Both the position numbers and the translations under genes were made by a program. This document shows, piece by piece, positions 8,892-32,439 of a stretch of 64,000 nt of DNA (position 1 is its first letter; each line of letters begins with the position of its first letter). Location: NCBI RefSeq assembly GCF_019083995.1, contig NZ_JAHRCU010000005.1, positions 186,001 through 250,000 on the forward strand. The letters are read 5' to 3'. The DNA is from Roseococcus sp. SDR. Its GTDB lineage: Bacteria; Pseudomonadota; Alphaproteobacteria; Acetobacterales; Acetobacteraceae. The notes under the pieces were generated by a model that was given only the letters and a program-made list of their open reading frames with translations, was not told where the DNA came from and ran no database searches.

Positions 8892-9916
8892 GCGACACAT
8901 TCCAGCAGGACCTGTCGGCCTGTCGTGAGTTGCTGCGCGTGGGCTCCAAGAGCTTCCACGCCGCCTCGCTGCTGCTGCCGCGCCGCGTGCGCGACCCCGC
9001 GACGGCGCTCTATGCCTTTTGCCGCCTGGGCGATGACGCGGTGGATGACGCGGCCGATCCGAGCGAGGGCCTCGCCATCATGCGCGCGCGGCTGGACGCC
9101 GCCTATCGCGGCACGCCGCAGGACCACCCGGCCGACCGCGCCTTCGCCCATGTGGTGGAAGCGCATGACATGCCGCGCGAATTGCCCGAGGCGCTGCTGG
9201 ATGGCTTCGCCTGGGATGCGGCCGGCCGGCGCTACGAGACGCTGGATGATGTGCACGCCTATGCCGCGCGCGTCGCCGGCACGGTGGGTGCGATGATGAC
9301 GCTGCTGATGGGCGTACGGCGCCACGCGGCCCTTGCGCGTGCCACGGATCTCGGCACCGCCATGCAGCTCACCAACATCGCGCGCGATGTGGGCGAGGAT
9401 GCGCGCAACGGCCGCCTCTACCTTCCGCGCCAATGGCTGCGCGAGGCGGATGTGGATCCGGACGCCTTCCTCGCGAATCCCGTGTTTTCGGCGGGCGTCG
9501 CCAGCGTCACCGCGCGGCTTCTGGCCGAGGCCGGGCGCCTCTACACGCGCGCCGAGGCGGGCATCGCCATGCTGCCGCGCGATTGCCGCCCGGCGATCCG
9601 CGCCGCGCATCGCATCTATGCCGAGATCGGCGCCGAGGTGGTGCGGGCCGGGCATGACAGCGTCTCGCGCCGCGCCGTCGTCTCCTCCAAGCGCAAGATG
9701 GCGCTGCTGGCGCGCGCCTGGCTGCCGACCATGCCGCGCCGCGCGGTGGCGCCGGAGCCGCCGCTGGAAGCGAATGCCTATCTCGTGCAGGCGGTGCCGG
9801 CGACGGAACTCGCGATTTCCGAAGGCAGCCTCGGCGAGCGCATCGGCTGGGCGATCGAGCTGTTCGCGCAGCTCGAGGAGCGGCAGAAAATCGCGCAGCG
9901 CACGGCGCAACCGTGA
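8888..9916 (+). CDS. crtB: Phytoene synthase
   Basis: Joins two geranylgeranyl diphosphates to 15-cis-phytoene, committing carbon to carotenoids. The 342-residue squalene/phytoene-synthase-fold protein has both Asp-rich metal motifs: DDAVDDAAD at about 49-57 and NIARDVGEDARNGRLYLP near 165-182. It overlaps bchO by four bases. No crtI (phytoene desaturase) is next to it. crtI-crtB is the usual pair in Rhodobacter-type clusters, so crtI must lie outside the window or in another operon. Confidence 0.95.
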   Translation: MSDTFQQDLSACRELLRVGSKSFHAASLLLPRRVRDPATALYAFCRLGDDAVDDAADPSEGLAIMRARLDAAYRGTPQDHPADRAFAHVVEAHDMPRELPEALLDGFAWDAAGRRYETLDDVHAYAARVAGTVGAMMTLLMGVRRHAALARATDLGTAMQLTNIARDVGEDARNGRLYLPRQWLREADVDPDAFLANPVFSAGVASVTARLLAEAGRLYTRAEAGIAMLPRDCRPAIRAAHRIYAEIGAEVVRAGHDSVSRRAVVSSKRKMALLARAWLPTMPRRAVAPEPPLEANAYLVQAVPATELAISEGSLGERIGWAIELFAQLEERQKIAQRTAQP

Positions 9917-17632: not shown

Positions 17633-19141
17633 TCACGTCCCCACCGCTTCTTCGGCCTTGGCCCGGGCCGCGCGCTGCTTGCGCTGCCGCTCGCGGAAGC
17701 CCGGCGGGTCCACCGGCTTCTCGCGGAAGCCGTAGCCAGCGCCGTCCGGCGTGCCGACGCCTTCGAAGAAGCTCACCATGCGGCTGAAGCGCTCGCGGCC
17801 CTTGGTCTGGGCGGCGACGATGCCGGCCATGGAGCCCGCACCCGCGATGGAAAACAGCGGCCGCGCGCTGACCATGTTGGTGAAGTAGAGGGCAGGGATG
17901 CCCATCTCCTTCGCCTTCTGCACCAGTGGCGTGGTGCCGAGCGCCAGATCGGGCTGGACCTCCTTCATTGCGGCCAGGTCCTGCTCGAGCGAGGCCCGGT
18001 ACTGCACATGGCAGCCCTGGGCCTTGAGCCATTCCGCATCGGGCGCGCTCCATTCGGTCCGCGGCGCGGCGGTGCCGACATAGGGGACCTCGGCGCCGGC
18101 CTCGATCAGCAGGCGCGCCACCAGCAGCTCGGAGCCTTCATAGCCCGAGACGGTGATGCGGGCCTGGATCGGGTTCGCGGCGAGCACGGCGCGGATGGCG
18201 GGCAGCACGGCCTGGCGCGCGGCCTCGCGCTGGCTCTCCGGCACGCCCGCGGCGCGGCCGATGGCCTCGATCCAGGCCGCGGTGCCCTCGGCACCGACGG
18301 GGCCGGAGCCCACGACGTTGCGGCCGGCCGCGCGGAATTCGCGCACGCTCGCCGTGTAGAAGGGATGCAGGGCCGCGACGGCCACGCTGTCCAGCGCGGA
18401 GTAGAGATCGCGCCATTCGCGGCAGGGCGCCTGCGCGCCGGCGGCCAAGCCCATCGGCGCCAGGATCTGGCCGATGCCGACCGGATCGGCCGGGAAGAGC
18501 TCACCCACCAGGCAGACATTGCGCGCCTCGGTGTGGTTGCGCGGCCGGGCGACCGGGCCCTGCTCGGCCTCCTGCCGGGCATAGCGCAGCATCGCGCCGG
18601 TCAGCACGTCCTTCGCTTCGGCGTGGGTCGGCACGCCGAAGCCGGGCACATCGATGCCGATGATGCGGACCCCGTTGATCTCCTTCGGCAGCAGCTCGAG
18701 CGGCACGCCGGAGGCGGTGGGGACGCAGAGATTGGTGATGACGACGGCGTCGTAATCCTCGGGCTTCGCCGTCTCGTTCACTGCGTCGCGGATGTCCTCG
18801 AAGAGCTTGCCGGTGACGAGCGTCTCCGAGTTGAAGGGCACATAGCCCACGGTCCGCTTCGCGCCGTAGAAATGCGAGGTGAAGGTCAGGCCATAGACGC
18901 AGCAGGCGCTGCCCGAGAGGATGGTCGCCACGCGCCGCATGCGCAGGCCGACGCGCAAGGAGCCGAAGGCCGGGCACATGCTCTGCGGCTGGTCATGCGG
19001 CCCACGCGGATAATCCTGCATGAGCTGGTCCATGACGGCCGTCTTGCCCGCGGCGCGCGCGGCCGCGTCAAACGTCTCGCGCCCCGCATGGCAGGGCGAG
19101 GCGCCGGGCTCCGGAGGGCTGGCCGGGGGGAGGGAGTCCAT
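17633..19141 (-). CDS. bchY: Chlorophyllide a reductase subunit Y
   Basis: Partner of BchZ in the COR catalytic component, related to nitrogenase NifD and to BchN. The 502-residue protein contains the family signature PQSMCPAFGSLRVGLRMRR and SGSACCVYGLTFTSHFYGAKR, the Cys residues being cluster ligands. Start ATG 19141 gives a full-length N-terminus with GASPCHAGRETFDAAARAAG. It lies three bases after the bchX stop. Confidence 0.96.
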   Translation of the reverse strand: MDSLPPASPPEPGASPCHAGRETFDAAARAAGKTAVMDQLMQDYPRGPHDQPQSMCPAFGSLRVGLRMRRVATILSGSACCVYGLTFTSHFYGAKRTVGYVPFNSETLVTGKLFEDIRDAVNETAKPEDYDAVVITNLCVPTASGVPLELLPKEINGVRIIGIDVPGFGVPTHAEAKDVLTGAMLRYARQEAEQGPVARPRNHTEARNVCLVGELFPADPVGIGQILAPMGLAAGAQAPCREWRDLYSALDSVAVAALHPFYTASVREFRAAGRNVVGSGPVGAEGTAAWIEAIGRAAGVPESQREAARQAVLPAIRAVLAANPIQARITVSGYEGSELLVARLLIEAGAEVPYVGTAAPRTEWSAPDAEWLKAQGCHVQYRASLEQDLAAMKEVQPDLALGTTPLVQKAKEMGIPALYFTNMVSARPLFSIAGAGSMAGIVAAQTKGRERFSRMVSFFEGVGTPDGAGYGFREKPVDPPGFRERQRKQRAARAKAEEAVGT

Positions 19142-19144
19142 GCC

Positions 19145-20119
19145 TCAGACGCCCTCGTAGACCACTTCGAGGGAAGGCTTGTTCAGCACGTTGGTGCCGC
19201 ACATGTCCTCCATCGTCGCCGGCTGCAGCGTGACGCCGCGGCCCACCGCATCGCCCTTGAAGAGGTTCAGCAGGTTCTCGTGGCTGAGCGGCGTGGGGCG
19301 CAACGGCGGCGCCTCGGCCACCTGGATGCCCAGCGCCTCGAAGAGCGGCGCCCATTGGCCGCCCGGCATGCCCACGATCTCGTAATTGGCGCTCTTGCGG
19401 CGGATATCCTCATCGGCCGGGATGGCGGCCAGCACGGGGATCCCCACGGCCTGGGCGAAGGCCTGCGCCTCGCCCGTGCCGTCATCCTTGTTGATGACCA
19501 GGCCCGCGACGCCGACATTGCCGCCGAGCTTGCGGAAGTAATCCACCGCCGAGCAGACATTGTTCGCCACATAGAGCGACTGCAGGTCGTTCGAGCCGAC
19601 GACGATGACCTTCTGGCACATGTCGCGCGCGATCGGCAGGCCGAAGCCGCCGCAGACCACGTCGCCCAGGAAGTCGAGCAGGACGTAGTCGAAATCCCAC
19701 TGATGGAAGCCCAGCTTCTCCAGCAGCTCGAAGCCGTGGATGATGCCGCGCCCGCCGCAACCGCGGCCGACCTCGGGGCCGCCCAGCTCCATGGCGAAGA
19801 CGCCATCGCGCTTGAAGCAGACATCGCCGATCGTCACCTGCTCGCCCGCCGCCTTCTTGCGGGAGGAGGTCTCGATGATGGTGGGGCAGGAACGGCCGCC
19901 GAAGAGGAGCGAGGTGGTGTCGCTCTTCGGATCGCAGCCGATCAGCAGGACGCGCTTGCCCTGGGCCGCCATCATGTAGCTGAGATTGGCCAGCGTGAAG
20001 GACTTGCCGATGCCCCCCTTGCCGTAGATCGCGATGATCTGCGTCTCCTTCTTCGCCGGAATCACCTCCATGGAGGCGGCGTCGTCGGAGGGCTGCATGT
20101 TCCCGGGCACAGCGTTCAT
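19145..20119 (-). CDS. bchX: Chlorophyllide a reductase iron-sulfur ATPase subunit X
   Basis: NifH/BchL-like homodimeric ATPase delivering electrons to BchYZ. The 324-residue protein has P-loop IYGKGGIGKSF (about 30-40), the switch II region and the 4Fe-4S cysteines in CFKRDGV and GRGCGGRG. Start ATG 20119 follows GGAGAAAA and overlaps the bchC stop (ATGA). An upstream frame extension lies inside bchC. Confidence 0.96.
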   Translation of the reverse strand: MNAVPGNMQPSDDAASMEVIPAKKETQIIAIYGKGGIGKSFTLANLSYMMAAQGKRVLLIGCDPKSDTTSLLFGGRSCPTIIETSSRKKAAGEQVTIGDVCFKRDGVFAMELGGPEVGRGCGGRGIIHGFELLEKLGFHQWDFDYVLLDFLGDVVCGGFGLPIARDMCQKVIVVGSNDLQSLYVANNVCSAVDYFRKLGGNVGVAGLVINKDDGTGEAQAFAQAVGIPVLAAIPADEDIRRKSANYEIVGMPGGQWAPLFEALGIQVAEAPPLRPTPLSHENLLNLFKGDAVGRGVTLQPATMEDMCGTNVLNKPSLEVVYEGV

Positions 20120-21045
20120 GCGTGTTTTCTCCAATCGAGGACCATCTTGAGGCAGCGCGCATCGCCGAAGGCGGTGCGGTAGGCGTCGGGCGCGTCGCCG
20201 GCGTGCTGGCGATGCGTGATCAGGTGGTCGAGCGAGAGCTTGCCCTCGGTGAGGAGCAGGTTCAGCGCGGCCATGTCCTGCGCCTGCCATTCGGCGGCGA
20301 TGCGCAGGCGCATCTCCCGCATGAAGGCCGGGGCGAAGGCGAAGGAGAGGCGGTCGTAGAAGCCGGCCAGCGTGATCTCGCCGCCGGGCGCCAGGCGCGC
20401 CACGAGCTGGTCGAGGATGTTCTGATCACCGCTCGCATCGCAGATGCGGCGATAATCGCGGCGTGCATCCGTCTCGGGCGAGAGCACGGCGTAGCCCTCG
20501 GCACCCTCGGCGCGTTCGGGGCTGAGCTCCCAGACGGTGGGCGCCGGCTGGCCCATGGCGATGGTGATACGCGCCAGGAGGCGGCCCAGCACGCCATGGC
20601 CGATGATCAACTCCGGCGGGTGGTCCACGATCGCGTGGTACGCCGTGGCGGCCAGTGCCAGCAGGATCGCTGTGTCGCCCAGCGACTCGTCCACCGGGAT
20701 GACGCGGGCCCCCGGCGTGACCAGGCGACCAGCGGCGCCGCCAAACAGGCCCCGCACATCACGAAATCCGCGGGAGCCGGGAATGAAGACGCGCCGGCCG
20801 ACGGCCTGGCCCGACGCCGGGCCGGCCTGGACGATGCGGCCCACGCTCTCATAGCCGGGGACGAGGGGGTAACCCATGCCGGGGAAATTCGGCATGCGGC
20901 CCAGCCAGAGCAGCTTTTCCGTGCCCGTGCTGATGCCGGACCACTCGACGTGGACCACCACATCTTCCTCGCCGGGGGGCAGGAGGTCGACACGCTGGAG
21001 CTGCAACTGCTCCGGCTGGGTCATCAGGACCGCGATGGTGTCCAC
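20116..21045 (-). CDS. bchC: 3-hydroxyethyl bacteriochlorophyllide a dehydrogenase
   Basis: Oxidises the 3-hydroxyethyl group to acetyl, a late step in bacteriochlorophyll a formation. The 309-residue medium-chain dehydrogenase fold shows WSGISTGTEKLLWLGRMP, PLVPGYESVGRIV and a nucleotide-binding region near HGVLGRLLARI. The start is GTG 21045. Its promoter lies in the gap to crtF and is covered by tandem PpsR-type palindromes, although it is also in line with upstream crtEF. Confidence 0.94.
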   Translation of the reverse strand: MDTIAVLMTQPEQLQLQRVDLLPPGEEDVVVHVEWSGISTGTEKLLWLGRMPNFPGMGYPLVPGYESVGRIVQAGPASGQAVGRRVFIPGSRGFRDVRGLFGGAAGRLVTPGARVIPVDESLGDTAILLALAATAYHAIVDHPPELIIGHGVLGRLLARITIAMGQPAPTVWELSPERAEGAEGYAVLSPETDARRDYRRICDASGDQNILDQLVARLAPGGEITLAGFYDRLSFAFAPAFMREMRLRIAAEWQAQDMAALNLLLTEGKLSLDHLITHRQHAGDAPDAYRTAFGDARCLKMVLDWRKHA

Positions 21046-21075
21046 GTGTGGTCGAACTCCCTTTCAGGGACGGGT

Positions 21076-21119
21076 CGTCAATCTAGACCGACAGTCAAAA
21101 GTGTCAAGTGAAATGGACA
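21076..21119 (-). promoter_or_regulatory. bchC promoter covered by tandem PpsR/CrtJ palindromes
   Basis: Site 1 (21102-21119) is a perfect TGT-N12-ACA. Site 2 (21076-21093) is CGT-N12-ACA, one base off. They are eight base pairs apart, the spacing used for cooperative CrtJ binding at the R. capsulatus bchC promoter. On the minus strand a perfect -35 TTGACA (21107-21102) and TAGATT as -10 (21085-21080), spaced 16 bp, are embedded in the two palindromes. Binding would therefore block polymerase. This implies aerobic/light repression. Confidence 0.85.
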
Positions 21120-21136
21120 TTCGCGCCATGCCTATG

Positions 21137-22270
21137 TCACGCAGACGCAACAAGCACGCGGGTGAGAAGCGGTGTCGCAGTGGGGAGCAGGCGGGGTTGT
21201 CGGAAGCCCGCCGCTTCCAGCATTTCGCAAAGCCTTCGTGGCGTGCGCGGGCGCCCCGTGCCCATGGCGCGCAGGTAGAAGCCGAAATAGGCGGCCCCCA
21301 TGGCCTCCGCGCCTGGCGTCTCGGCCATCGGCTCGGCCACCAGCAGCGTGCCGCCGGGGGGCAGGGCCGCATGGGCGGCACGCAGCATGCCGGCCACATC
21401 TGCCTCGTCATGGTCGTGCAGGACGCGGACGAAACTGATGATGTCGGCGCCTTGAGGGAGGATTCCGGCGTGGAAGTCGCCCCCCACGGTGCGGGCGCGA
21501 TCGGCCATGCCAGCCGCCGCGAAGCGCGACTCCGCACGCGCGGCAACGGCAGGAAGGTCGAAGAGGATGACGTTCAGTGCAGGGTGTGCGGCGGCCACCG
21601 CGCGCAGGAAGGAGCCATCGCCGCCGCCCACGTCGAGCAGACAGCGATGTTTAGAAAAATCATAAGCATCAAGCACTTCGCTCGAGATCATCGGCTGCGA
21701 GGCGGCCATGAGCGCCGTGTAGGGGGCGACCTCGGCATCGCCCAGCGCCTCGGGCCGCTCCACGCCGGCATAGGGCCAATAGGCGGCGAGCTTGCCGCCG
21801 CCGCGCTCGCCGCGCAGCAGGGCCACCGGATCGGTCAGGTCGGCGTAGAGCATCGCATGGTGGGTCACCATGGATTCGATGGCGGCATTGCCCACCATCA
21901 CCGCCCCCAGCTGCCCCAACGCCCAGCGGCCGTTGCGGCGCTTGGTCAGGCCCAGCGACTCGGCCGCCTCGAGCAGCTGCGCCGCCGCATCGGCGGGCAG
22001 GCCGAGGCGATGCGCCAGCGTGCGCTCCTCCTGCGGGCCTTCGGCCAGGATGGTGAAGAGATCCAGCCGCACGCAGGCATAGAGCACCTGCGAGTAGACG
22101 AAGCCGGCCGCGAGATCGAAGAGCGAGCGCGCCCTTCGCCGCGCCATGCCGCGCGTCAGCGGAAAGCGGCCGGCCCAGCGGCGGAAATCGGCGCTGGCCA
22201 CGAGCCGGTCATGCCAGGCGGCCAGGCGGTCGCGCCAGTTCAGGGGGGAGGTCAGGGCGAGGCTTTTCAA
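21137..22270 (-). CDS. crtF: Demethylspheroidene O-methyltransferase
   Basis: SAM-dependent methylation of the C-1 hydroxyl of acyclic carotenoids. The 377-residue protein has an N-terminal dimerisation/winged-helix region and a C-terminal methyltransferase domain with motif I LLDVGGGDGSFLRA and VRVLHDHDEADV. The only start fitting the family N-terminus is TTG 22270, ten bases after the crtE stop, with no clear Shine-Dalgarno, so it may depend on translational coupling from crtE. Confidence 0.92.
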   Translation of the reverse strand: MKSLALTSPLNWRDRLAAWHDRLVASADFRRWAGRFPLTRGMARRRARSLFDLAAGFVYSQVLYACVRLDLFTILAEGPQEERTLAHRLGLPADAAAQLLEAAESLGLTKRRNGRWALGQLGAVMVGNAAIESMVTHHAMLYADLTDPVALLRGERGGGKLAAYWPYAGVERPEALGDAEVAPYTALMAASQPMISSEVLDAYDFSKHRCLLDVGGGDGSFLRAVAAAHPALNVILFDLPAVAARAESRFAAAGMADRARTVGGDFHAGILPQGADIISFVRVLHDHDEADVAGMLRAAHAALPPGGTLLVAEPMAETPGAEAMGAAYFGFYLRAMGTGRPRTPRRLCEMLEAAGFRQPRLLPTATPLLTRVLVASA

Positions 22271-22280
22271 AGGCGGGGGC

Positions 22281-23147
22281 TCAGAGCGCGTGGGCGGGCA
22301 GGGTCTTGGGCACCAGGCGCCGAGCCTCGTGGCGCATGAGCGCGCCGAGTTCCGCGCGGCCGGGGCAGGGCGGGATCGCCTCCACCGCCAGATCCGCCAA
22401 TTCTTCCAGGCGCTTGACGGCGCCCTTCAGGCCCAGCTCGCGCACCGCGCTCGGCCGGTCATGCGCCGCGTCCTGGCCGACCGGCTTGCCCAGCTGCTCC
22501 GCGTCGGAAATCGCATCGCCGATGTCATCGGCCACCTGATAGGCCTCGCCCAGGCGAAGCCCGACTGCGTTCCAGGCCTCGATGGGCCCGCCGGCCGCGG
22601 CCGCACCCGCCATGGTGGCGCCGGCGAAGAGGGCGGCGGTCTTGGCGCGGTGATAGGCCGCGACATCCACGCGCTTCTCACATTCCCAGGCCTGGCCGGC
22701 CACGATGCCGAGCGGCGTGCCGACCGAATCCCCCACGATCCGCATCACATCGCCGAGCCGCTCCGGATGGGCGCAGTGCGCGGCGGCGCGGGCGATGGTC
22801 TGGAAGGCGAGGACGATCAGCGCATCGCCGGCCAGCAGCGCCAAGGGCTCGCTGAAGGCACGATGGACGGTGAGCCGGCCGCGCCGCGTCGCCGCGTCGT
22901 CGAAGCAGGGCATGTCGTCATGCACGAGGGAGGCGCAGTGCAGCATCTCGATCGCGGCGGCGGTCGCTTCCACCAGCACCGGGTCATCCATGCCGCAGGC
23001 GGCGGCGGCGGCCATGCAAAGCCGCGGGCGCACCCGCGCGCCGCCGGGGAAGACGGCGTGGTGCATGGCGAGCGAGAGCAGGGGCGGCGTGGCCCCGGGC
23101 GCCAGGGCCTCGGTCAATTGCCGTTCGATGCGACGGTTCGCGTCCAT
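22281..23147 (-). CDS. crtE: Geranylgeranyl diphosphate synthase
   Basis: Makes C20 GGPP for carotenoids and the bacteriochlorophyll tail. The 288-residue isoprenyl synthase has the first Asp-rich motif in HDDMPCFDDAATRRG and the second in DDIGDAISDAEQLGK. ATG 23147 follows GGGAG. It is the first gene of the crtEF-bchCXYZ-pufBALMC chain and diverges from crtC across a PpsR-type operator. Confidence 0.94.
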   Translation of the reverse strand: MDANRRIERQLTEALAPGATPPLLSLAMHHAVFPGGARVRPRLCMAAAAACGMDDPVLVEATAAAIEMLHCASLVHDDMPCFDDAATRRGRLTVHRAFSEPLALLAGDALIVLAFQTIARAAAHCAHPERLGDVMRIVGDSVGTPLGIVAGQAWECEKRVDVAAYHRAKTAALFAGATMAGAAAAGGPIEAWNAVGLRLGEAYQVADDIGDAISDAEQLGKPVGQDAAHDRPSAVRELGLKGAVKRLEELADLAVEAIPPCPGRAELGALMRHEARRLVPKTLPAHAL

Positions 23148-23194
23148 GGAAGTGCTCCCTTCGGAACGGCGAAGATGGCACTCTCCTCATTGAC

Positions 23195-23212
23195 TGTCAC
23201 GTTCAATTGACA
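23195..23212. promoter_or_regulatory. PpsR/CrtJ operator in the crtE-crtC divergent region
   Basis: Perfect TGT-N12-ACA, 48 bases before crtE and about 90 before crtC. A plus-strand -35-like TTGACA (23207-23212) is embedded in it. A weaker TGT-N12-ACC lies at 23239-23256. One operator could repress both carotenoid directions, as in other purple bacteria. Confidence 0.78.
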
Positions 23213-23250
23213 GCAATCTCGCGTCGGACCGAAAAAACTGTCAACTGATC

Positions 23251-23267
23251 CTGACCATGCTGGTCAG
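23251..23267. promoter_or_regulatory. Perfect dyad in the crtC leader
   Basis: CTGACCA-TGC-TGGTCAG, a 7+3+7 perfect inverted repeat, 36 bases before the crtC start. It could be an operator for a second regulator or a small RNA hairpin. No known family is assigned. Confidence 0.45.
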
Positions 23268-23303
23268 GCAACGAGCGACCCGCAGGGTCCAGGAGATGCG
23301 CCC

Positions 23304-24254
23304 TTGCCCTTGGACGATCCCTCGAACGGCCTCGGCCCCGGCTTCCACCACACGCCCCCGAAAGACGGCTATGCCTGGTGGTATCTGGATGCGCTGAGCG
23401 AGGATCACCGCCACGGGCTGACCATCATCGTCTTCCTGGGCTCGGTCTTCTCGCCCTACTACGCGATCGCGCGCCGCCAGGGCCCGGCGGACCCGATGAA
23501 TCATTGCTGCATCAACGTGGCGCTCTATGGCAGCCCGGCCCGCTTCGCGATGACCGACCGCCCGGCCCGCGCGCTGAAGCGCGACGATGTCAGCATCACC
23601 ATCGGGCCGTCGGCCATGCGCTGGGACGGGAAGGTGCTGACGCTGGACCTGGATGAGGTGGCCGTGCCGCTGCCGCGCCGCATCCGGGGCCAGGTGCGCC
23701 TCACGCCGGGGCCGATGAACCGCCGCGTCTTCACGCTCGATGCGGCCGGCCACCACCATTGGCGGCCGATGAGTGCGGCGGCCAAGGTGGAGGTGGAACT
23801 CGAGCATCCGGGCCTCTCCTGGAAAGGCCATGGCTATTTCGACAGCAACTGGGGCTCGGCGCCGCTGGAGCGCGATTTCCAGGAGTGGGACTGGTGCCGC
23901 GTGCCGCTGAAGGAGGGGGCCGCCATCCTCTATGATGCGCGCCGCCGTGACGGCACGCGCCAGCAATTGGCTCTCCGCTTCCACGAGGATGGCCGCATCG
24001 AGGAGATGCCCGTGCCCCCCGACGTCAGCATGCGCCGCTCCCTCTGGGGCATCCGCCGCGCCACGCAGAGCGAGAAGGGGGCGCGCATCGTGAAGACGCT
24101 GCTGGACACGCCCTTCTATGCGCGCTCCGTGCTGGAGACGACGCTCTGCGGCGAGACCGCCATGGGCGTGCATGAAAGCCTGGATTGCGACCGCTTCGCC
24201 GCCCTGCCCATCCAGCTGATCCTGCCATTTCGGGTTCCGCGGCGCTGGGTCTAG
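23304..24254 (+). CDS. crtC: Acyclic carotenoid 1,2-hydratase
   Basis: Adds water to the terminal double bond of neurosporene or lycopene on the spheroidene pathway. The 316-residue protein has the conserved YAWWYLDALSEDHRHGLTIIVF near the start and WKGHGYFDSNWGSAPLE centrally. The start appears to be TTG 23304, with AGGAG eight bases upstream; no in-frame ATG is near. crtD, its usual partner, is absent from the window, and this gene marks the end of the cluster. Confidence 0.93.
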   Translation: MPLDDPSNGLGPGFHHTPPKDGYAWWYLDALSEDHRHGLTIIVFLGSVFSPYYAIARRQGPADPMNHCCINVALYGSPARFAMTDRPARALKRDDVSITIGPSAMRWDGKVLTLDLDEVAVPLPRRIRGQVRLTPGPMNRRVFTLDAAGHHHWRPMSAAAKVEVELEHPGLSWKGHGYFDSNWGSAPLERDFQEWDWCRVPLKEGAAILYDARRRDGTRQQLALRFHEDGRIEEMPVPPDVSMRRSLWGIRRATQSEKGARIVKTLLDTPFYARSVLETTLCGETAMGVHESLDCDRFAALPIQLILPFRVPRRWV

Positions 24255-24283
24255 GATACCCGAAACGCCCCGGAGGACTGACC

Positions 24284-25081
24284 ATGCTCGAACAATCCCC
24301 CATGCCCGTCCTGGACATCCCCTCGCTGCGCGACAAGGTCTCGCCCGCGGAGTGGCAGGCCCGCGTGAACCTCGCCGCCTGCTATCGCCTCATCGCGCTC
24401 TACGGCATGAGCGACATGATCGCGAACCACATCTCGGCCCGCGTGCCGGGCGAGGAGGGCGCCTTCCTCATCAACGCCTATGGGCTGCTCTATGAGGAGA
24501 TCACCGCCTCCTCCCTCATCAAGATCGACGTGAAGGGCAATATCCTGCTCAAGCCCGATTTCGGCGAGCTGAACTACGGCGTGAACCGCGCGGGCTTCGT
24601 CATCCATGGCGCGATCCATGAGGCGAGCCACGAGATCGACTGCGTGATCCACACGCACACCTGGCCGGGCATGGCCGTCTCCTCGCTGGAATGCGGCCTG
24701 CTGCCGATGAACCAGACGGCGATGCGCTTCCTCAAGATCGGCTATCACGACTATGCGGGTGTCGTGCTCGACACCGCGATGCAGGCGAAGCTGGTCGAGG
24801 ATCTCGGCAGCAACAACGCGCTGATCCTGCGCAACCACGGGCTGCTGACGGTGGGCAAGACCATCGCGGAGGCCTTCAACGCCATGCACCGGCTCGAGCT
24901 CTCCTGCCGGGCGCAGCTCGCGGCACTCGCCTGCAATGCGAAGATCATCCAGGTGCCCCAGCATGTGCTGGAGGAGACCTACATGAACTACCAGCCGCAG
25001 ACGCGCCGCCCCTATGGCGTGATGGAATGGCCCGCGCTGCTGCGCCGTCTCGACCGGATCGATCCTTCTTTCCGGAACTGA
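24284..25081 (+). CDS. Class II aldolase/adducin family protein
   Basis: A 265-residue zinc aldolase/epimerase-fold protein with the metal-binding HTHTWPGMAVSSL, a second His in LILRNHGLLTVG, and NHISARVPG near the N-terminus. Many such proteins are sugar-phosphate aldolases, but the adducin-like subgroup in alphaproteobacteria has no defined substrate, so none is assigned. Start ATG 24284 has CGGAGGA upstream. An in-frame extension back into crtC is rejected. It is the first non-photosynthetic gene after the cluster. Confidence 0.85.
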   Translation: MLEQSPMPVLDIPSLRDKVSPAEWQARVNLAACYRLIALYGMSDMIANHISARVPGEEGAFLINAYGLLYEEITASSLIKIDVKGNILLKPDFGELNYGVNRAGFVIHGAIHEASHEIDCVIHTHTWPGMAVSSLECGLLPMNQTAMRFLKIGYHDYAGVVLDTAMQAKLVEDLGSNNALILRNHGLLTVGKTIAEAFNAMHRLELSCRAQLAALACNAKIIQVPQHVLEETYMNYQPQTRRPYGVMEWPALLRRLDRIDPSFRN

Positions 25082-25235: not shown

Positions 25236-26489
25236 TCAGGGGAAGGGCAGGCGGATCCGCTCACGGAACCAGAAGGCGCCCTCGGCCACCAGGCTCGCGT
25301 GATAGGGCGGCTGCAGGTCGCCCCGCGGAAACTCCCCGGTGATGGTCACGCCCTCGCCGGGGGGCACGTCGCGCCCCAGCGTGCCGCGCGCCATCAGCTC
25401 CATCTCGCCCGCGCCGGAGGCGAGGCTGCCGGTGGCGCCCATCGTCACCAGTCCTTCCTCCCGCTCGGCCTGCGCGCGCCAGGTGGTCTCGCCGGTGTTC
25501 TCGGCGCGCAGCACCACGCGCAGCGTGCCGGGGCTGGGTTCGCTCGCCTCGATCACGGTGAAGCGGGCTGAGGTCCGGTCGGGGTCGAGCCCGCCCGGGC
25601 GCAGCGCGCGCGGCCGCCGCGCGAGGCAGGTGTTCCAGCCGCGCTCATGCCCGTCGCCCGCCGCCTCTTCGATGGTCCGGCGGCCCTGGCCGGCGGGGAA
25701 GAAGCCGTTCACGCTGTGCAGGAACTGGATCTCGGTGAAGCCCGTCTCGCGCAGCAGATGCGTCAGGTAGTCGCGCGCGAAGGGGCTCTCCAACGTGCCG
25801 TAGCGCGCCATCTCGGCGTCCAGCTCGGCCTCCAGCGCGCGGTCGCCGGGGTTCCAGCGGCTCTCGCCCAGCACGGCCATCTGCCCGCCCGGCGCCAGCA
25901 GGCCCAGCACGTTGCGCGCGGCCTTCGCCTCGTCGATCACGTGGTGCCACGCCTCATAGAACACCACCGCATCGGCGCGGCCCGAGCCTTCGAGGTCCGG
26001 CGGCAGGCTTTCCATCGTGCCGCGCACGAATTCCGCGCGCGCCAGCATGTCGATCTCCCACTTGGCCGAGGCGCGCTCGATCCGCTTGCGCGCGATGTCG
26101 AGCATGTCCTGGCTCGGCTCCAGCAGGATGACGCGATAGCCGATCATCAGGAACTGCTCGGCGAGCCAGCCGGGGCCCGCCCCCGCATCCACGATGGTGC
26201 CGCCGGGCAGGTCGAGCTTCTGGATGATGTTCAGCGCATTGTAGATGGCGCGGAAATAATGGGCATGGCCGCGCGTCGCATCGAGCGGCTTGAGCAGCAG
26301 GCTCTCGCGATGTTCGGGCGGGATCTTCCAGGTATAGGCCTCGGCCGCCGCCACCAGTTCCTCGTAGCGGCCATCGGCGGCGGTCACGTAGCGCCGCGGG
26401 CCGGTGAAGCCCGGTTGTTCCGGCGCAGGCGCGGGCGTGGGCGCGCGGCCCAGCACGCGCCGCAACCAGCCCGGCGGTTCAGCGGGCAT
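25236..26489 (-). CDS. SAM-dependent methyltransferase with C-terminal beta-rich domain
   Basis: A 417-residue protein. Residues about 65-270 form a class I methyltransferase fold with motif I IVDAGAGPGWLAEQF and the acidic strand-2 end LLEPSQDM. Residues about 300-417 look like a beta-sandwich (TGETTWRAQAEREEG, LPPGEG-type loops), similar in flavour to Ig-like domains appended to polysaccharide or lipid-modifying methyltransferases. The substrate is unknown. It lies 21 bases downstream of the sensor-fused adaptor gene on the same strand, so it may be co-transcribed with the exporter. Confidence 0.75.
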   Translation of the reverse strand: MPAEPPGWLRRVLGRAPTPAPAPEQPGFTGPRRYVTAADGRYEELVAAAEAYTWKIPPEHRESLLLKPLDATRGHAHYFRAIYNALNIIQKLDLPGGTIVDAGAGPGWLAEQFLMIGYRVILLEPSQDMLDIARKRIERASAKWEIDMLARAEFVRGTMESLPPDLEGSGRADAVVFYEAWHHVIDEAKAARNVLGLLAPGGQMAVLGESRWNPGDRALEAELDAEMARYGTLESPFARDYLTHLLRETGFTEIQFLHSVNGFFPAGQGRRTIEEAAGDGHERGWNTCLARRPRALRPGGLDPDRTSARFTVIEASEPSPGTLRVVLRAENTGETTWRAQAEREEGLVTMGATGSLASGAGEMELMARGTLGRDVPPGEGVTITGEFPRGDLQPPYHASLVAEGAFWFRERIRLPFP

Positions 26490-26510: not shown

Positions 26511-28661
26511 CTACTCGCGTAGCACGATCACATCCCCGGGCGAGAGGCCTTCGCGGACCTCCACGCCCTCGGGCGTGCTGATCCCGAGCGTCACGGGGCG
26601 TGAGACCACGCGCCCGCCCTCGCGCACGCGCACCACGCGGCTTCCGTTCTCGTCGCGGATCGCGTTGGGCGGGAGCACCACCGCATCCTCGCGCTCATGC
26701 GTGATGATGGCGAGGCTGGCCGACATGCCGACGGCAAGGCGCGCACGCTGCTCCGGCGTCAGGTCGGTGATGGCGATGCTGACGGCGAAATTGGGCATGC
26801 CACGCCCCATGCCGCCCTGGTCGGAGCTGGCCTGCGCGGCCACGGAGGCGACGCGGCCCGTCAGCACCTCGCCTGCGAAGGCATCGCCGGTCACGGTCAC
26901 GTTCTGGCCGGGGCGCACCTGGTTCACGTCGATCTCGTCCACCTGCCCGCGCACCAGGAAGCCCGCGAGATCGCCGATGCCGAACATGGTCTGCCCGCGG
27001 GAGACGCGGGTGCCGACCTCGATGGTCTCGGCGCGGCCCTGGCCGGCGCCCCGCTCGGGCGGCATGAGCACGACGCCGGAGACGGGCGCGCGCACCTCGG
27101 CATTCTGCAGGTCGGTCTCGATCTCGCGCAGCTTGGTCTCGGCATTGGCGAGCTCGAGTTCCGCCGTGCGCAGGTGCAGTTCGCTGCCGCGGTCGAGCGT
27201 CGCGGCGAGGTCCTGCTGCGCCGCCTGCAACTGCAGCTCCTGGTTGCGCTGCTGCTGGATGAGGTTGCGATGCTCCTCGGCCGGGATGATGCCGCGGCTG
27301 AGCAGCATCTGGCTCTGCTGCAGGCGGGCGCGCAGGTTGCTGGTCTCGAGCTCGGCGGCGGCGAGCTGCCGGCGGGCGCGGGCGACCTCGAAGCCGTTCG
27401 CCCAGCCGCGGAGCTCCTCGACGCGCTGGCGCGCACGGATCTCGGCCGCGCGGGCTTCGCGCAGGCGCGTCTCCACCTCGCCGCGATCCATCCGCAGCAG
27501 GACTTCGCCCTGGGTGACCGCGCCGCCGTAGCGGAAGAGGCGTTCGCGCACCGTGCCGTCATAGGGAGCGACGACGCTGACATTGGCGCCCGGCTCCAGC
27601 ACGCCCACCACGGCGATGCGCGCGCTGACCGGCTGGGCCGTGGCCGTCATGGTGATGGCGCCACCTGCGCCGGCCGCGAAGACATCGGGTTCGGCCGGCG
27701 AGAACCAGGTCCAGGCGGCGACACCGAAGACGCCGAGGAAGGCCGCCGCCACGGCCGCGATGCGCAGGGCCGCGATGCGCCGCGCGATGCGGGCCGAGCG
27801 CGTGGCGGAATCCTCGAGCTTGAGGAAGGCGTCCTGCAGCTGCGTGTATTGCGAGGCGAGCTCGGCCTGCAGGCGCTCGGTCTCGGTCACATCGGTGAAG
27901 ACGGCGGTGATGGCCGGGCGTCCGGCATGGGGGCCGGTCTGCACGCGCCAGCTTGTGGCCTCGACCGAGAGGCGACGCTCGCCCGGGAAGTCGAGCACGC
28001 GGCGGCCCTGCGGGGCCTCCTCCTCCTGGAGGGGGGCGAGGACGGCGTCGATGAAGTCATCCGTGCCGTCACGCTCGCTGAGCAGGAGGGCGAGGCTCTG
28101 GCCGATCGCCTCCTCGGCATTGATCTCCAGGATGCGGGCCGCGGCGGGGTTGACGGTCATCACCCGCGCATCGGGGCCGATGGCGAGCACGCCATCCGTC
28201 ATCACATCCAGCGCGCGGCGATAATCGAGGGAGAGGCTCTCGTCCCGCCCGCGCCGCGCCTCCTCGCGCTCGGCCAGCTCAAGCTCGGCGGCGCAGCGGG
28301 CAGCGAGGCGATGCAGGCCCTCGCGCTCGGCCTCGGTGAGGTCGCGCGGCTTGCGGTCCAGCACCAGCAGTGCGCCGCGGCGGCCCGGCAGGGGCGCCGC
28401 GGCCGCGAAACGCAGCGCATCCGCGCCCGTGACCAGCGCATGCGCGGCGAAGCGCGGATCGGCCGTGAGGTCGGGGAAGGTGCCGAAGGCGTCGCCGGAA
28501 GCCGCCGTGAAGGGCTCCGTCTCCAGCGTCGCACCGATCGCGGCGACCACGCCCCGCTCGCCCAGCACGACGGCGCCGATGGGCGCGTGGCAGAGCAGGG
28601 CGGCGAGCCGTGCGATGTCCTCGAAGCCCGGCGCGACGTGGCCGGCAGGCGCGTCAGTCAT
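26511..28661 (-). CDS. GAF-PAS-transmembrane-HlyD fusion: sensor-linked efflux periplasmic adaptor
   Basis: A 716-residue protein with an unusual order. Residues about 12-130 are GAF-like; 145-262 are PAS (TDGVLAIGPDARVMTVN); 262-292 are a short coiled coil; 297-320 are a single membrane helix preceded by RSARIARRIAALR, so N-inside. From 340 on it is a full HlyD/MacA-type adaptor: lipoyl half APYDGTVRERLFRYGGAV, alpha-hairpin 393-520, second lipoyl half AEVRAPVSGVVL, then beta-barrel and membrane-proximal domains. Ordinary adaptors have only a signal peptide or anchor. No kinase or output domain exists, so the sensor may act on the pump. It overlaps the TolC gene by eight bases. Confidence 0.88.
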   Translation of the reverse strand: MTDAPAGHVAPGFEDIARLAALLCHAPIGAVVLGERGVVAAIGATLETEPFTAASGDAFGTFPDLTADPRFAAHALVTGADALRFAAAAPLPGRRGALLVLDRKPRDLTEAEREGLHRLAARCAAELELAEREEARRGRDESLSLDYRRALDVMTDGVLAIGPDARVMTVNPAAARILEINAEEAIGQSLALLLSERDGTDDFIDAVLAPLQEEEAPQGRRVLDFPGERRLSVEATSWRVQTGPHAGRPAITAVFTDVTETERLQAELASQYTQLQDAFLKLEDSATRSARIARRIAALRIAAVAAAFLGVFGVAAWTWFSPAEPDVFAAGAGGAITMTATAQPVSARIAVVGVLEPGANVSVVAPYDGTVRERLFRYGGAVTQGEVLLRMDRGEVETRLREARAAEIRARQRVEELRGWANGFEVARARRQLAAAELETSNLRARLQQSQMLLSRGIIPAEEHRNLIQQQRNQELQLQAAQQDLAATLDRGSELHLRTAELELANAETKLREIETDLQNAEVRAPVSGVVLMPPERGAGQGRAETIEVGTRVSRGQTMFGIGDLAGFLVRGQVDEIDVNQVRPGQNVTVTGDAFAGEVLTGRVASVAAQASSDQGGMGRGMPNFAVSIAITDLTPEQRARLAVGMSASLAIITHEREDAVVLPPNAIRDENGSRVVRVREGGRVVSRPVTLGISTPEGVEVREGLSPGDVIVLRE

Positions 28662-30153
28662 TCAGCGAAATCCGCCATGTGTCGAGCGTGGTGCCGAGCA
28701 CCTGGTCAAGCTGCGTGAGCGCGTTGGAATAGGCGATCACCGCCGAAAGCTCGGCGCTCTCCGCCGATTGCAGCGACCCCTGGAAGGAGACGACCTGGAA
28801 GTTGGAGGAGCGCCCGGCCTGGAGCTTCACCAGCTCCGCCTCCAGCTGCTGGCCGGCCAGTTCGCGGGCGCGGCGGGCCAGCTCCGCCTGGCGGCGCAGC
28901 GTGTCGATGTTGCGGACGATGTCCTCCACCGCCTGGCGCAGCCGGTCGCGCGCCTGCTCGATCGCGAGCTCGGACTGGCGGAGCGCGATGGTGGCGTTCA
29001 CCTCCGGCTGCTCGCGCGCGATCTGGCCGAGCGGGATGTTGAACTGCAGCCCGACGTTGAAGTCGTTGCGGACCTCGGCCAGGGCGCCCAGCGTGCGCGC
29101 GAGTTCCGCGCGCTGCGCCGCCCAGCCGGTGCCGGCGACGAGGGAGACGTCCCAGAGGCGCTGGTTGCGCGCGACATCGAGGTTGATGCGGTTGATCTCC
29201 ACCGCCAGCAGGGTGCGCAGGTAGTCCGGCTGGTTGGCGGCTGCGACCTCGAGCGCGCGCTGCGGGTTGACCCGGGCGGATTCCGCGGCTGGCCGCTCCA
29301 CCGCCCAGATCCTCTGATTCTGGTTCACCGCCAGCAGGGTGAGGAGGGCGAGGCGCGCCGCCTCATGCTGGTTGCGCGCACCGACGAGCTGGAGCTCCTG
29401 CTGCGCGATGCTGGTCTCGGCCTGGATGAGTTCGACCTGGGCGAGGCGGCCCGCCGTGAAGAGCGCCTGGTTCACGCTGGCCAGTTCCCGCGCGCGGCGC
29501 AGCGCCTCGGTGGCGATGCGCAGCTGCTCCTGTGCCTGCAGCAGCGTCCGGTAGCTCGTGATGGTCTGGGTGATCTGGTCCGAGACCAGCGCCTTGAGCT
29601 GGAGCTTGCTGTTCTCCTCCTGGATGCGCGCGATGCGCACCGGGGCCATGGCGAAGTCCACGCCACCGCCGGCCAGCAGCGGCTGGATCACCTGGAAGGT
29701 GGCGCGCCCCTGGCCGCTCGGGTTCTGGCCGCGCGTGTTGCTCTGCACGCCGAGCCAGCCGAACTGGAACTGCGCGCCGGTGGGGGCCGCGATGTTCACG
29801 ACGGGGCCGAGCGTTGCCTGCGTCAGATTCACACCATTGCTGCGCGAGCGGGTGACGCCGCCGGTGACGCCGAAGCGCGGGTCGAAGGTCGCCTCCGCCA
29901 CGCGGAGCGAGAAGCGGTCGGCCACGCGCTGCAGGTACTGGCTGCGGATGGCGCGGTTGCTGCGCAGCGCGAGGAAGACGGCCTCGGGCAGGGTCAGCGG
30001 GATGCTGCCCTCCGGCATGTTGGCCGTGGGCATGGTGGTGTTGGCGCGGGGGGCGGGCCGCTCCCGCGCCTGCTGCGCCCAGCCGGGCGCGGGGATGAGG
30101 GGAAGCGCGCAAAGGGCCAGCGCCACGCCCAGGATCGCCCTGCCTCCCTGCAT
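28654..30153 (-). CDS. TolC-family outer-membrane efflux protein
   Basis: Outer-membrane duct of a tripartite exporter. The 499-residue precursor has a signal peptide (about 1-24, cleaved after PGWAQ) and two OEP repeats with long helices. Start ATG 30153 follows AAGGAG. It overlaps the adaptor gene by eight bases, and an ABC ATPase and permease pair of MacB type lies just upstream on the same strand. A weak sigma-70-like TTGCGG-N18-GATAGT precedes it, so it could also have its own promoter. Confidence 0.9.
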   Translation of the reverse strand: MQGGRAILGVALALCALPLIPAPGWAQQARERPAPRANTTMPTANMPEGSIPLTLPEAVFLALRSNRAIRSQYLQRVADRFSLRVAEATFDPRFGVTGGVTRSRSNGVNLTQATLGPVVNIAAPTGAQFQFGWLGVQSNTRGQNPSGQGRATFQVIQPLLAGGGVDFAMAPVRIARIQEENSKLQLKALVSDQITQTITSYRTLLQAQEQLRIATEALRRARELASVNQALFTAGRLAQVELIQAETSIAQQELQLVGARNQHEAARLALLTLLAVNQNQRIWAVERPAAESARVNPQRALEVAAANQPDYLRTLLAVEINRINLDVARNQRLWDVSLVAGTGWAAQRAELARTLGALAEVRNDFNVGLQFNIPLGQIAREQPEVNATIALRQSELAIEQARDRLRQAVEDIVRNIDTLRRQAELARRARELAGQQLEAELVKLQAGRSSNFQVVSFQGSLQSAESAELSAVIAYSNALTQLDQVLGTTLDTWRISLND

Positions 30154-30292
30154 CGCACCGTCTCCTTTTTCGCTCTGACGCAAACTATCCCACTCTCCGG
30201 GCTTTCGCCGCAAGCCACCACGCCCATGGGTTTTCCCGATGGGCCCCATCGCCCCTCTCGACCGCGCGCGCCGGGTGGTGTTCCCTGAGCGC

Positions 30293-30517
30293 ATGATCCG
30301 CGTGGCGCCCCTGCTGCTTCTGTTGGCTTCGGCCTGCGCCCCGCCGGCGACGCTGCGCCAGCCGGTGATCGGCGCGAGCTACGAGCCGGTGAACGCACCG
30401 CTGCCGCCGCTGCCGGCCGTGATGGAGCTGACGGGGGACCCACCCATCGCGCTGCCCGACCCCTCGACCTTCACTCCGATCTTAGCGCCTCGATCGGGTC
30501 CAGGCGGGCGGCCATGA
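30293..30517 (+). CDS. Small proline-rich lipoprotein, unknown function
   Basis: A 74-residue product starting MIRVAPLLLLLASACAPP, a lipoprotein signal with a near-consensus lipobox (ASAC) and mature Cys15. The rest is Pro-rich (APLPPLPAVMELTGDPP) and without known fold. It lies on the strand opposite the exporter genes, between permease and tolC, and its 3' end overlaps the end of the permease gene by 47 bases in convergent orientation. Coding status is supported by the clean signal sequence only. Confidence 0.5.
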   Translation: MIRVAPLLLLLASACAPPATLRQPVIGASYEPVNAPLPPLPAVMELTGDPPIALPDPSTFTPILAPRSGPGGRP

Positions 30518-31643
30518 CGGCCGGGTAGAAGCCGAAGAAGACGCCGACGGCGAGCGAGACGCCCGCGCCCAATGGCGCCGCGATGGGCGAGAAATGCACG
30601 GGCCAGCCGGACATCCAGGCGAAGCCCACGCCGCCGGCATAGCCGAGCGCCACCCCCAGCGCCGCGCCCAGCACCGAGAGGATCAGCGCCTCGCTCAGGA
30701 ACAGCCGCCGCACATCCCGCCGGCGGGCGCCGATGGCGAGCCGGATGCCGATCTCGCGTTTCCGCTCGGAGACGGACATCAGCATGATGTTCATGACGCC
30801 GACGCCGCCCAGCACCAGCGCGATGCTGCCAACGGCACCCAGCAGCAGCGCCACCAGGCGCACCTGGCTGTTCATGCCGGCGATGAGCTGCCGGGCGGAC
30901 AGCACGTTCAGCGTGGCATCGCGCAGCCCCGGGCCCAGATGCTGCTGCAATTGCTGGGTCGCGACTTCGGGGTCCGCATCGCCGCGCAGGCGCGCCACCG
31001 CCATGGAGAGGGCGGGTGCTGCCATCACGCGCCGCGCATTGGGCAGGGAGAGGAAGAGCGTCCCGTTCACGTCCATCGGCAGCATGGGGTTCATCAGCAC
31101 CGGCTCGATGATGCCGATGACGGTGAAGATGTAGCGGCTGACCCGGATCTGCGAGCCGACGCGGATGGGCGAGAAGGGAGTGGAGAGCTGCTGCGCCAGA
31201 TCCGAGCCGAGGACGGCGTGCAGCTCGAAACGGTCATGCGGCGAGAGGAAGCGGCCTTCGGCCATGGGCAGGCGGCCCACATCGGCGAAGCTGCCGGTGG
31301 CGCCGATGAAGCCGGCATTGCGGGTCTGCCCCTCGAAGCTGATGGGGCCGCCGCCGATCATGAAGGGCGCGATCTCGCCCACCGTCGGCACCATCATGGG
31401 CACGCTCTCGATGTCGCCCAGGCGGAAATTGCCGAGGCCCGTCGGGCTGTCGGCCCGCAGCACCAGCGTGTCGGTCCCCATCTGGCGGAACTGCCGGATG
31501 GTCTCCTGCCGGGCCATGGTGCCGGCATGCAGCATGGAGATGACGGCGCCCGCGCCGACGACGATGCCGATCAGGGCGAGGAGGCTGCGCTGCCAGGCGG
31601 CGAGCAGGTTGCCGGCGGCCTCCATCAAGGTCTGGCGGATCAT
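30471..31643 (-). CDS. MacB-like ABC transporter permease
   Basis: A 390-residue permease with one N-terminal helix (about 19-40), a large periplasmic MacB_PCD-type domain (about 45-255) and three C-terminal helices. The coupling stretch SVSERKREIGIRLAIGARRRDV, typical of MacB/LolC-like FtsX permeases, follows the second helix. Here ATPase and permease are separate proteins. It pairs with the ATPase upstream and the adaptor/TolC genes downstream, suggesting export of a small molecule, peptide or lipid from the periplasmic side. Confidence 0.9.
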   Translation of the reverse strand: MIRQTLMEAAGNLLAAWQRSLLALIGIVVGAGAVISMLHAGTMARQETIRQFRQMGTDTLVLRADSPTGLGNFRLGDIESVPMMVPTVGEIAPFMIGGGPISFEGQTRNAGFIGATGSFADVGRLPMAEGRFLSPHDRFELHAVLGSDLAQQLSTPFSPIRVGSQIRVSRYIFTVIGIIEPVLMNPMLPMDVNGTLFLSLPNARRVMAAPALSMAVARLRGDADPEVATQQLQQHLGPGLRDATLNVLSARQLIAGMNSQVRLVALLLGAVGSIALVLGGVGVMNIMLMSVSERKREIGIRLAIGARRRDVRRLFLSEALILSVLGAALGVALGYAGGVGFAWMSGWPVHFSPIAAPLGAGVSLAVGVFFGFYPAVMAARLDPIEALRSE

Positions 31644-31751
31644 GGCTGCGCCACCGATTCACGCCTCCGGGCATTCGCCCTCCGTCGATCGGGGGCGGGC
31701 TGCGCCACCGATTCACGCCTCCGGGCATTCGCCCTCCGTCGATCGGGGGCG
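31644..31751. repeat. Perfect 54-bp tandem duplication between ABC ATPase and permease genes
   Basis: Positions 31644-31697 and 31698-31751 are identical over all 54 bases and fill the gap between the ATPase stop (31753) and the permease start (31643). On the minus strand each unit carries a GGAGG-type sequence and an out-of-frame ATG. 54 bases is a multiple of three. Identity with no divergence points to a recent event. Confidence 0.95.
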
Positions 31752-31752
31752 G

Positions 31753-32439
31753 TCATGCGTGCTCCAGCGCCATCTGGTTCTCGAGGCGCCCCTGCTTCAG
31801 CACGAGCCGGCGGCGGCAGCGGGCGGCGACCCCGGGATCATGCGTGATGATGAGCACCAGGACGCCCAGCTCCCGGTTGATCTCCTCGAAGAGGCCCATG
31901 ATCTCGCGGCTCACGGTCGGGTCCAGCGCGCCGGTGGGTTCGTCGGCCAGCAGGATGGCGGGCTCGCCCACCAGGGCGCGGGCGATGGCGACGCGCTGCT
32001 TCTGCCCGCCCGAGAGCATGTTGGGCACATGGTTCAGATGCTGGCCGAGGCCCACGCGTTCCAGCATCGCCTCGGCGCGGCGGCGCGCCTCGCTCTCGGG
32101 CGTGCCGCGATACATCAGCGGCAGGGCCACGTTCCGCCAGGCATTGAGGCGCGGCATCAGGAAGAATTGCTGGAAGACGAAGCCGATCATCTTGTTGCGC
32201 ATGGCCGATTGCGCATCCGCCTCGGCTGCCAGCACATTCTCGCCGCGGATGCGGTAGGTGCCCGAGCTTGGGCGATCCAGCAGGCCCACGATGTTCATGA
32301 AGGTCGTCTTGCCCGAGCCAGAGCCGCCCATGAGCGAAACCAGCTCGCCGCCGGCAAGGTCGAGATCGATGCCGTGCAGCACCGTGCGCTCGGTCGGGCC
32401 GATCTTGAATTTTCGGGTGATGCCGCGGAGTTCAAGCAT
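31753..32439 (-). CDS. MacB/LolD-type ABC transporter ATPase
   Basis: A 228-residue nucleotide-binding protein with Walker A GGSGSGKT (38-45), Q-loop FVFQQ, signature LSGGQKQR (142-149), Walker B ILLADEPTGALD (D166, E167) and switch His200. The subfamily is that of MacB, LolD and FtsE. It is first of the exporter genes in the transcription order ATPase, permease, TolC, adaptor. It is separated from the permease by the duplicated 54-bp unit. Confidence 0.93.
   Translation of the reverse strand: MLELRGITRKFKIGPTERTVLHGIDLDLAGGELVSLMGGSGSGKTTFMNIVGLLDRPSSGTYRIRGENVLAAEADAQSAMRNKMIGFVFQQFFLMPRLNAWRNVALPLMYRGTPESEARRRAEAMLERVGLGQHLNHVPNMLSGGQKQRVAIARALVGEPAILLADEPTGALDPTVSREIMGLFEEINRELGVLVLIITHDPGVAARCRRRLVLKQGRLENQMALEHA

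Follow-up and report, generated by a model that had tools for sequence, protein, structure and literature searches.

The window (i.e., the whole 64,000-nucleotide stretch that we analyzed) carries a run of genes on the reverse strand that encode, in this order, an ABC ATPase, a permease, a TolC-family channel, a fusion protein, and a methyltransferase. These genes and the parts of the fusion protein are listed below, with the basis of each assignment in parentheses.

31753..32439, reverse strand: ABC ATPase of the MacB/LolD type, encoded by a separate gene (Pfam, E = 9e-32)
30471..31643, reverse strand: MacB-type permease with MacB_PCD and FtsX domains and without an NBD (Pfam, E = 2.6e-26 and 1.3e-20)
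28654..30294, reverse strand: TolC-family outer membrane channel (Pfam OEP, E = 7.5e-37)
26511..28661 (stop codon included), reverse strand: 716-amino-acid fusion of GAF domain, PAS domain, coil, transmembrane (TM) helix, and MacA-like adaptor (open reading frame, Pfam, homologues)
28281..28625, reverse strand: GAF domain, residues 13 to 127, degenerate in the window clade (Pfam, PDB 4zmu, orthologues, dN/dS)
27876..28226, reverse strand: PAS domain, residues 146 to 262, ending in a DxTE motif (DVTE) (Pfam, identity, dN/dS)
27771..27875, reverse strand: putative signalling helix or coiled coil, residues 263 to 297 (alignment, spacing, periodicity, dN/dS)
27702..27770, reverse strand: single TM helix with its N terminus inside, about residues 298 to 320 (hydropathy, flanking charge)
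26514..27620, reverse strand: periplasmic MacA-like adaptor, residues 348 to 716 (PDB MacA matches, Pfam, NCBIfam RND_mfp)
25236..26489, reverse strand: SAM methyltransferase, 21 nt downstream of the fusion gene and outside the conserved core (Pfam)

The preliminary description of this DNA had claimed one uninterrupted 716-residue protein with GAF-like and PAS domains, a coiled coil, a membrane helix, and an adaptor, set among MacA/MacB/TolC-type genes and devoid of any kinase, cyclase, or DNA-binding output, and had proposed a domain search. The frame is indeed a single unbroken one of 716 codons, and both the domain order (from the N terminus, degenerate GAF, PAS, helical coil, one TM helix, and MacA-like adaptor) and the setting are borne out by Pfam and the neighboring genes. 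Pfam matched PAS (E = 8e-10, residues 146 to 222; 39.1 bits against a cut-off of 22.6), PAS_4 (E = 9e-8, residues 151 to 263; 32.7 bits against 23.1), HlyD_3 (E = 1.5e-15), HlyD_D23 (E = 1.4e-13), and, below its curated cut-off, GAF (18.9 bits against 22.4, residues 16 to 127); it found no kinase, cyclase, or DNA-binding domain and no other output domain. Among the best 25 of 26 NCBIfam families, histidine-kinase models matched the PAS part with scores far under their cut-offs. An assembly error joining a separate N-terminal gene, against which the preliminary description had cautioned, was ruled out. Other assemblies, including the single-contig assembly G241, contain this fusion too, so it is not an assembly join; the probability that two genes were united by an assembly or gene-call artefact is negligible, and the GAF-PAS-adaptor fusion is confirmed as a real architecture.

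The hydrophobic stretch at about residues 296 to 320 has a net charge of +3 in the 20 residues before it and of -2 in the 22 residues after it, and hydropathy and flanking charges thus agree with the single N-in helix proposed earlier; a marginal second hydropathy window at residues 15 to 16 also exceeds 1.6. Given the positive charge before and the negative charge after the hydrophobic stretch, the first ~295 residues, which hold the PAS and GAF domains, should be cytoplasmic. The protein thereby departs from the hallmark of MacA-type adaptors of having no folded cytoplasmic domain. Its periplasmic part is of the MacA type by similarity to solved structures, the closest of which (phmmer, PDB) are all MacA proteins (4dk0, E = 1e-9; 3fpp, E = 7e-8; 5nik, E = 9e-8). 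The NCBIfam MacA model gave 35.2 of 342 bits, so the protein is not a MacA equivalog, and the broad adaptor subfamily RND_mfp (TIGR01730) exceeded its cut-off (105.1 versus 94.9 bits), although the transporter next to this adaptor is of the MacB type and not RND (Pfam). Passages of one paper give RxxxLxxxxxxS/T as the TolC-binding motif of the adaptor hairpin tip (PMC3391258); this motif (RLS) is absent at the hairpin tip near residue 453, and the sole regular-expression match lies at residue 498. Six further long HlyD_3 frames of the same genome, taken from 25 HlyD_3 places, had no PAS or GAF match at E = 1e-3.

The full-length AlphaFold model was poor (mean pLDDT, 48; alignment of 7 sequences), and with pLDDT values under 50 across residues 137 to 394 it cannot show one continuous helix. 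Foldseek searches with this model matched adaptors with E values down to 2e-8 and TM-scores of just 0.1 to 0.3 by target (top match, the RND-pump adaptor 9j3d) and, weakly, GAF domains (3hcy, E = 4e-3, TM-score 0.69 by target; 3ci6, E = 7e-3, TM-score 0.59). Coming from a low-confidence model, these matches carry little weight.

The earlier assignment of PAS stands, whereas the GAF of the window protein falls short of the Pfam cut-off. In its orthologues L033 and L037, the corresponding part of the protein reaches 57.8 and 46.5 bits with Pfam GAF and remains a canonical GAF domain, which indicates that the N-terminal domain of the window protein is a real but decayed GAF. The closest solved structure is the GAF domain of a diguanylate cyclase (4zmu; phmmer, PDB; E = 2.6e-4). 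Hallmark residues are lost, the RxxAFC stretch having disappeared from the window protein, L030, and L042. With a purpose-built profile, the GAF domains of L041 and L073 were low-scoring; that of L041 (32 bits) is detected by this profile only and not by Pfam. Cys24 is conserved in 11 of the 12 GAF-bearing rows of alignment A1 and His74 in 10, which argues against a wholly idle domain despite its otherwise fast change.

Sensing of haem, flavin, or redox state, another proposal of the preliminary description, fared differently in the two domains. LOV photoreceptors need an adduct-forming Cys, and haem-binding PAS domains need a conserved proximal His. The PAS domain, which is 93 to 98% identical to its four nearest rows, has no Cys, and its sole His (residue 245) is not conserved in the alignment of homologues, so we rejected haem or LOV-flavin sensing by this domain as being without supporting residues. 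Given the conserved Cys24 and His74, the GAF domain may sense metal or redox state.

The gene arrangement points to a tripartite exporter of the MacB family. The end of the tolC gene overlaps the start of the fusion gene by 8 nt, and the two are therefore probably translated together. Under a start rule that takes the most upstream ATG within 60 nt before the tolC end, and thus favors overlap, 28 of 31 adaptor genes overlap tolC (the exceptions being L032, L066, and L074). By Pfam, the combination of a MacB_PCD and FtsX permease with an ABC ATPase places the transporter in the MacB family; the NCBIfam MacB equivalog cut-off is not reached (157.5 and 224 of 966 bits), and for the ATPase the MacB and LolD models were best, both under their cut-offs. 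ATPase and permease genes both lie beside the adaptor gene in 25 of 34 loci (18 and 16 in two sets). As for the other nine, the contig ends at or near the tolC or adaptor gene in eight, and in L076 the 2.4 kb before tolC had no match. Two loci, L039 and L040, have their ATPase and permease genes on the strand opposite tolC and the adaptor, which shows that the genes do not form one operon everywhere.

The surroundings of this core vary. The space separating the ATPase gene from the permease gene is filled by a perfect 54-nt tandem duplication (31644 to 31751). A 33-nt core of it is found twice more in the genome, with 2 and 3 mismatches; the reversed pattern, used as a control, gave no such match. 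Among 18 loci, the methyltransferase has a near-full match in L043 only and fragments in L030, and it is possibly being lost. Beyond it, positions 17633 to 24254 hold part of a photosynthesis gene cluster, with bchY and bchX identified by NCBIfam and genes that we take, from their translations, to be bchC, crtF, crtE, and crtC; a class II aldolase gene (24185 to 25081) lies between the photosynthesis and export genes. Such bch or crt genes adjoin the adaptor locus in the window, and the same holds for five loci among the 18 (bch and crt in L030, L031, and L043; crtC in L044; part of crtE in L033). An intrinsic link to photosynthesis was rejected, as the stretches from other genera (L037 to L041; up to 20 kb, some with early contig ends) had no bch or crt genes.

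We also considered that the cytoplasmic part might recognize the cargo or the enzyme producing it, in the manner of the short cytoplasmic domain of HlyD. Passages of two papers are consistent with this reading: the cytoplasmic domain of HlyD shares in substrate recognition (PMC13328181), and regions of this kind are described as indispensable to substrate recognition and to assembly (PMC8277102). MacB, however, is held in part of a further review not to move substrates across the inner membrane (PMC5985334), and no recurring cargo or biosynthetic gene was found among 20 flanking open reading frames of L065, L066, L067, L070, L071, and L040. We regard cargo recognition as rather unlikely. No shared regulator recurred in the flanking frames either (a CHASE3 kinase and response regulator in L065, a TetR regulator in L071, and a GntR-containing frame in L040). 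In L067, an HTTM or vitamin K-dependent gamma-carboxylase-like gene (8261 to 9841) lies directly downstream of the PAS-adaptor cluster, which might point to a modified peptide as the cargo of this lineage.

Adaptor homologues, with or without a sensor and with the own genome included in the counts, were found in 14 of 21 genomes of the genus (ten with GAF and PAS, three with PAS only, and one fragment). In samples of genomes from higher ranks, they occurred in 22 of 397 genomes of the family (10 of 102 genera), 13 of 250 of the order, 6 of 385 of the class, and 6 of 299 drawn from the phylum. The five other matches in the class, from five different families, extend from PAS to the end without a GAF domain (E = 1e-102 to 1e-138). 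Four adaptors in the phylum draw match only from the TM helix on; three of these, L061 being the fourth, were labelled bare. In another class of the phylum, L064 (619 to 2526; genome G973, 76% complete) combines a different, full-strength GAF (47.5 bits with Pfam), a coil with LQxAF (8.9 bits with a purpose-built coil profile), a TM helix, and an adaptor, with a MacB-type permease gene downstream. This protein had no relatives at E = 1e-35 in other genomes among 48 of its class and probably arose by a separate fusion event or by exchange of the sensor.

Across the 34 adaptors, we labelled 13 as GAF plus PAS, 13 as PAS, 1 as GAF (tentatively, by a purpose-built profile only), and 4 as bare; 3 with uncertain starts or contig ends (L074, L079, and L080) received no label. 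The sensor-free homologues L040 and L070 to L072 have the same neighbors, as do sensor-free homologues in plasmid records of Methylosinus and Azospirillum, and the sensor is thus dispensable for export as such. Across loci, the neighbors are stable and the sensor is modular. In a phylogeny built from the adaptor part alone, the presence of PAS requires 2 changes and that of GAF 4 (3 and 5 with four extra rows); the deep branches, on which the number of PAS gains (one or more) rests, are weak. GAF is absent from several relatives that keep the PAS-adaptor.

Between the PAS domain and the membrane, the distance from DxTE to LQxAY/F is 18 (13 sequences) or 25 (14 sequences) residues in all 27 DxTE-bearing adaptors, i.e., the two lengths are one heptad apart, and the alignment has no indel between LQxAY/F and the TM helix. 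Such heptad-exact spacing is suggestive of a signalling helix rather than proof of one, since just two separate changes (in the window clade and in L039) were counted by eye on the tree. Hydrophobic positions of the coil recur at -7, 0, +7, and +21, and the power spectrum, computed on rows that include the out-of-register L034, has its maximum at a period of 3.5 (25.0), with an almost equal value at 3.6 (22.4), so that periodicity by itself is of little help in telling a coiled coil from amphipathic helices in general. For linkers of this kind, passages on YF1 report experiments showing that heptad phase matters in that protein (PMC6798134). Taken together, the heptad-exact spacing, the conserved DxTE motif, and the swapped sensor modules lend support, as an idea, to the inside-to-outside signalling through the helix that the preliminary description had put forward.

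Rates of evolution differ strongly among the domains. The window protein and L030 are 71% identical in GAF, 98% in PAS, 100% in the coil, 96% in the TM helix, and 94% in the adaptor, with dN/dS values (codon bootstrap) of 0.38 (0.22 to 0.65) for GAF, 0.04 (0 to 0.11) for PAS, and 0.10 (0.06 to 0.15) for the adaptor. The pairs L043/L044 and P0001/L042 gave the same picture; the ranges over three window-clade pairs were 0.38 to 0.54 for GAF, 0.04 to 0.06 for PAS, 0.05 to 0.11 for coil plus TM, and 0.10 to 0.13 for the adaptor. PAS, coil, and TM helix are thus constrained in this clade. Wider pairs (P0001/L043 and L031/L044) gave 0.72 to 0.73 for GAF and 0.11 to 0.15 for PAS; over all of these pairs, the GAF value is ~5 to 11 times that of PAS. 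In the one sister clade tested, GAF is constrained (0.19 and 0.13), and in its pair L032/L027 PAS is the faster domain (0.42 versus 0.19), a reversal that implies that the constrained domain differs by lineage. On the basis of these ratios, we regard the GAF domain as eroding in the window clade and not in the tested sister clade; in the window clade it is probably losing its role, with PAS as the live part. Together with the lost hallmark residues and the absence of GAF from several relatives, the fast dN/dS weakens the weight that the preliminary description had placed on GAF as a sensor. GAF erosion, the several GAF changes on the tree (four, or five with the added rows), a G252 homologue whose frame is broken, and, at the start of a G152 contig, a fragment that contains a stop would also fit sensor domains that are functionless evolutionary leftovers. 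Given the low dN/dS of PAS and of coil plus TM in all three window-clade pairs and the retention of PAS across the class in five further families, we consider this quite improbable.

We see an even chance that the locus encodes an exporter of the MacB type under inside-out, post-translational control, in which PAS, more than the eroding GAF, would be the live sensor. The adaptor would belong to a tripartite exporter with split ATPase and permease and a TolC channel, and would carry a cytoplasmic PAS domain at its N terminus, capped by GAF in some lineages. A cytoplasmic ligand or partner would change the PAS domain; the DxTE motif would hand this change to the register-fixed coil that runs on into the adaptor TM helix; and the helix would alter either the stimulation of the nearby ATPase by the adaptor or the engagement of the permease, so that export could be tuned without new transcription. 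In this scheme, we infer the signal, the direction of its effect, the gating, and the cargo. According to parts of a review, deletion of the cytoplasmic region or TM helix of MacA compromises the stimulation of the MacB ATPase and prevents resistance in vivo (PMC5985334). By analogy, the sensor would sit at exactly the coupling end of MacA. Also in favor of a sensor-controlled pump is L064, from another class, in which a coil and adaptor of a similar kind follow a different GAF.

Some general properties of these modules speak against sensing. PAS domains often do no more than dimerize, and a dimeric coil can be reconciled with a hexameric adaptor only if three dimers assemble. The cytoplasmic domains might be assembly devices that sense nothing and dimerize adaptor protomers or dock them to the ATPase, and the PAS domain without conserved Cys or His, the resemblance of the coil to an oligomerizing helix, and the decay of GAF while the gene persists are in keeping with such a role. 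However, one kind of coil follows sensors of differing type (PAS, GAF plus PAS, or another GAF), and the sensor-free homologues with the same neighbors presumably assemble; we assign a pure assembly role a lesser, though appreciable, probability. Extending inside-out control to the whole set of homologues, we tentatively propose, with somewhat less than even expectation, a modular sensor-exporter family in which swappable PAS and GAF domains would drive a phase-locked helix across the inner membrane and into the periplasmic adaptor of a MacB-type pump; a machine that spans the envelope would thus be controlled directly from inside, with neither a kinase nor a second messenger nor transcription in between. 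Since the same exporter genes occur naturally next to adaptors that are bare, carry PAS or GAF plus PAS, or probably carry GAF only, and since the coil lengths are heptad-exact, inside-out control is directly testable.

Among the literature matches listed (titles and abstract beginnings, open-licence literature), no fusion of PAS or GAF to a MacA-type adaptor was found besides an HlyD-type case (PMC4452313). In passages of four other papers (PMC11218460, PMC9120033, PMC10434189, and PMC6372562), terms of both kinds occur and denote separate genes. A GAF-HlyD fusion is thus already in print for another system: the 2015 paper describes, in the passages concerned, GAF-HlyD/biotin_lipoyl proteins of SecA_DEAD-M50 loci, which also join GAF to an HlyD-type adaptor and for which its authors suggest a regulatory and sensory role (PMC4452313). 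Those loci encode a SecA-like protein and an M50 peptidase, and the authors report no ABC transporter there; the word PAS is absent from the text of that paper, and the likeness to the present family rests on architecture. Compared with MacA-MacB-TolC of Escherichia coli, the nearest solved adaptors are MacA proteins and the same permease, ABC ATPase, and TolC stand alongside, but the ATPase and permease, fused in E. coli MacB, are encoded here by two separate genes, and the hairpin tip differs from that of MacA in having no RLS motif. MacA is said in part of a 2026 review to be without a cytoplasmic domain (PMC13328181), whereas another review speaks, in the passage concerned, of a cytoplasmic region of MacA (PMC5985334); the present protein has ~295 residues there, with PAS and GAF. 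HlyD of type 1 secretion has, as here, a cytoplasmic N terminus, one TM helix, and a periplasmic adaptor, although its cytoplasmic part is small according to passages of two papers (PMC3391258 and PMC13328181) and its partner is HlyB. Finally, PAS/LOV histidine kinases such as YF1 share with the present family a PAS-type sensor and, as passages on YF1 describe, a heptad-dependent coil (PMC6798134), but where those proteins end in a kinase output, the coil here leads into a transmembrane adaptor.
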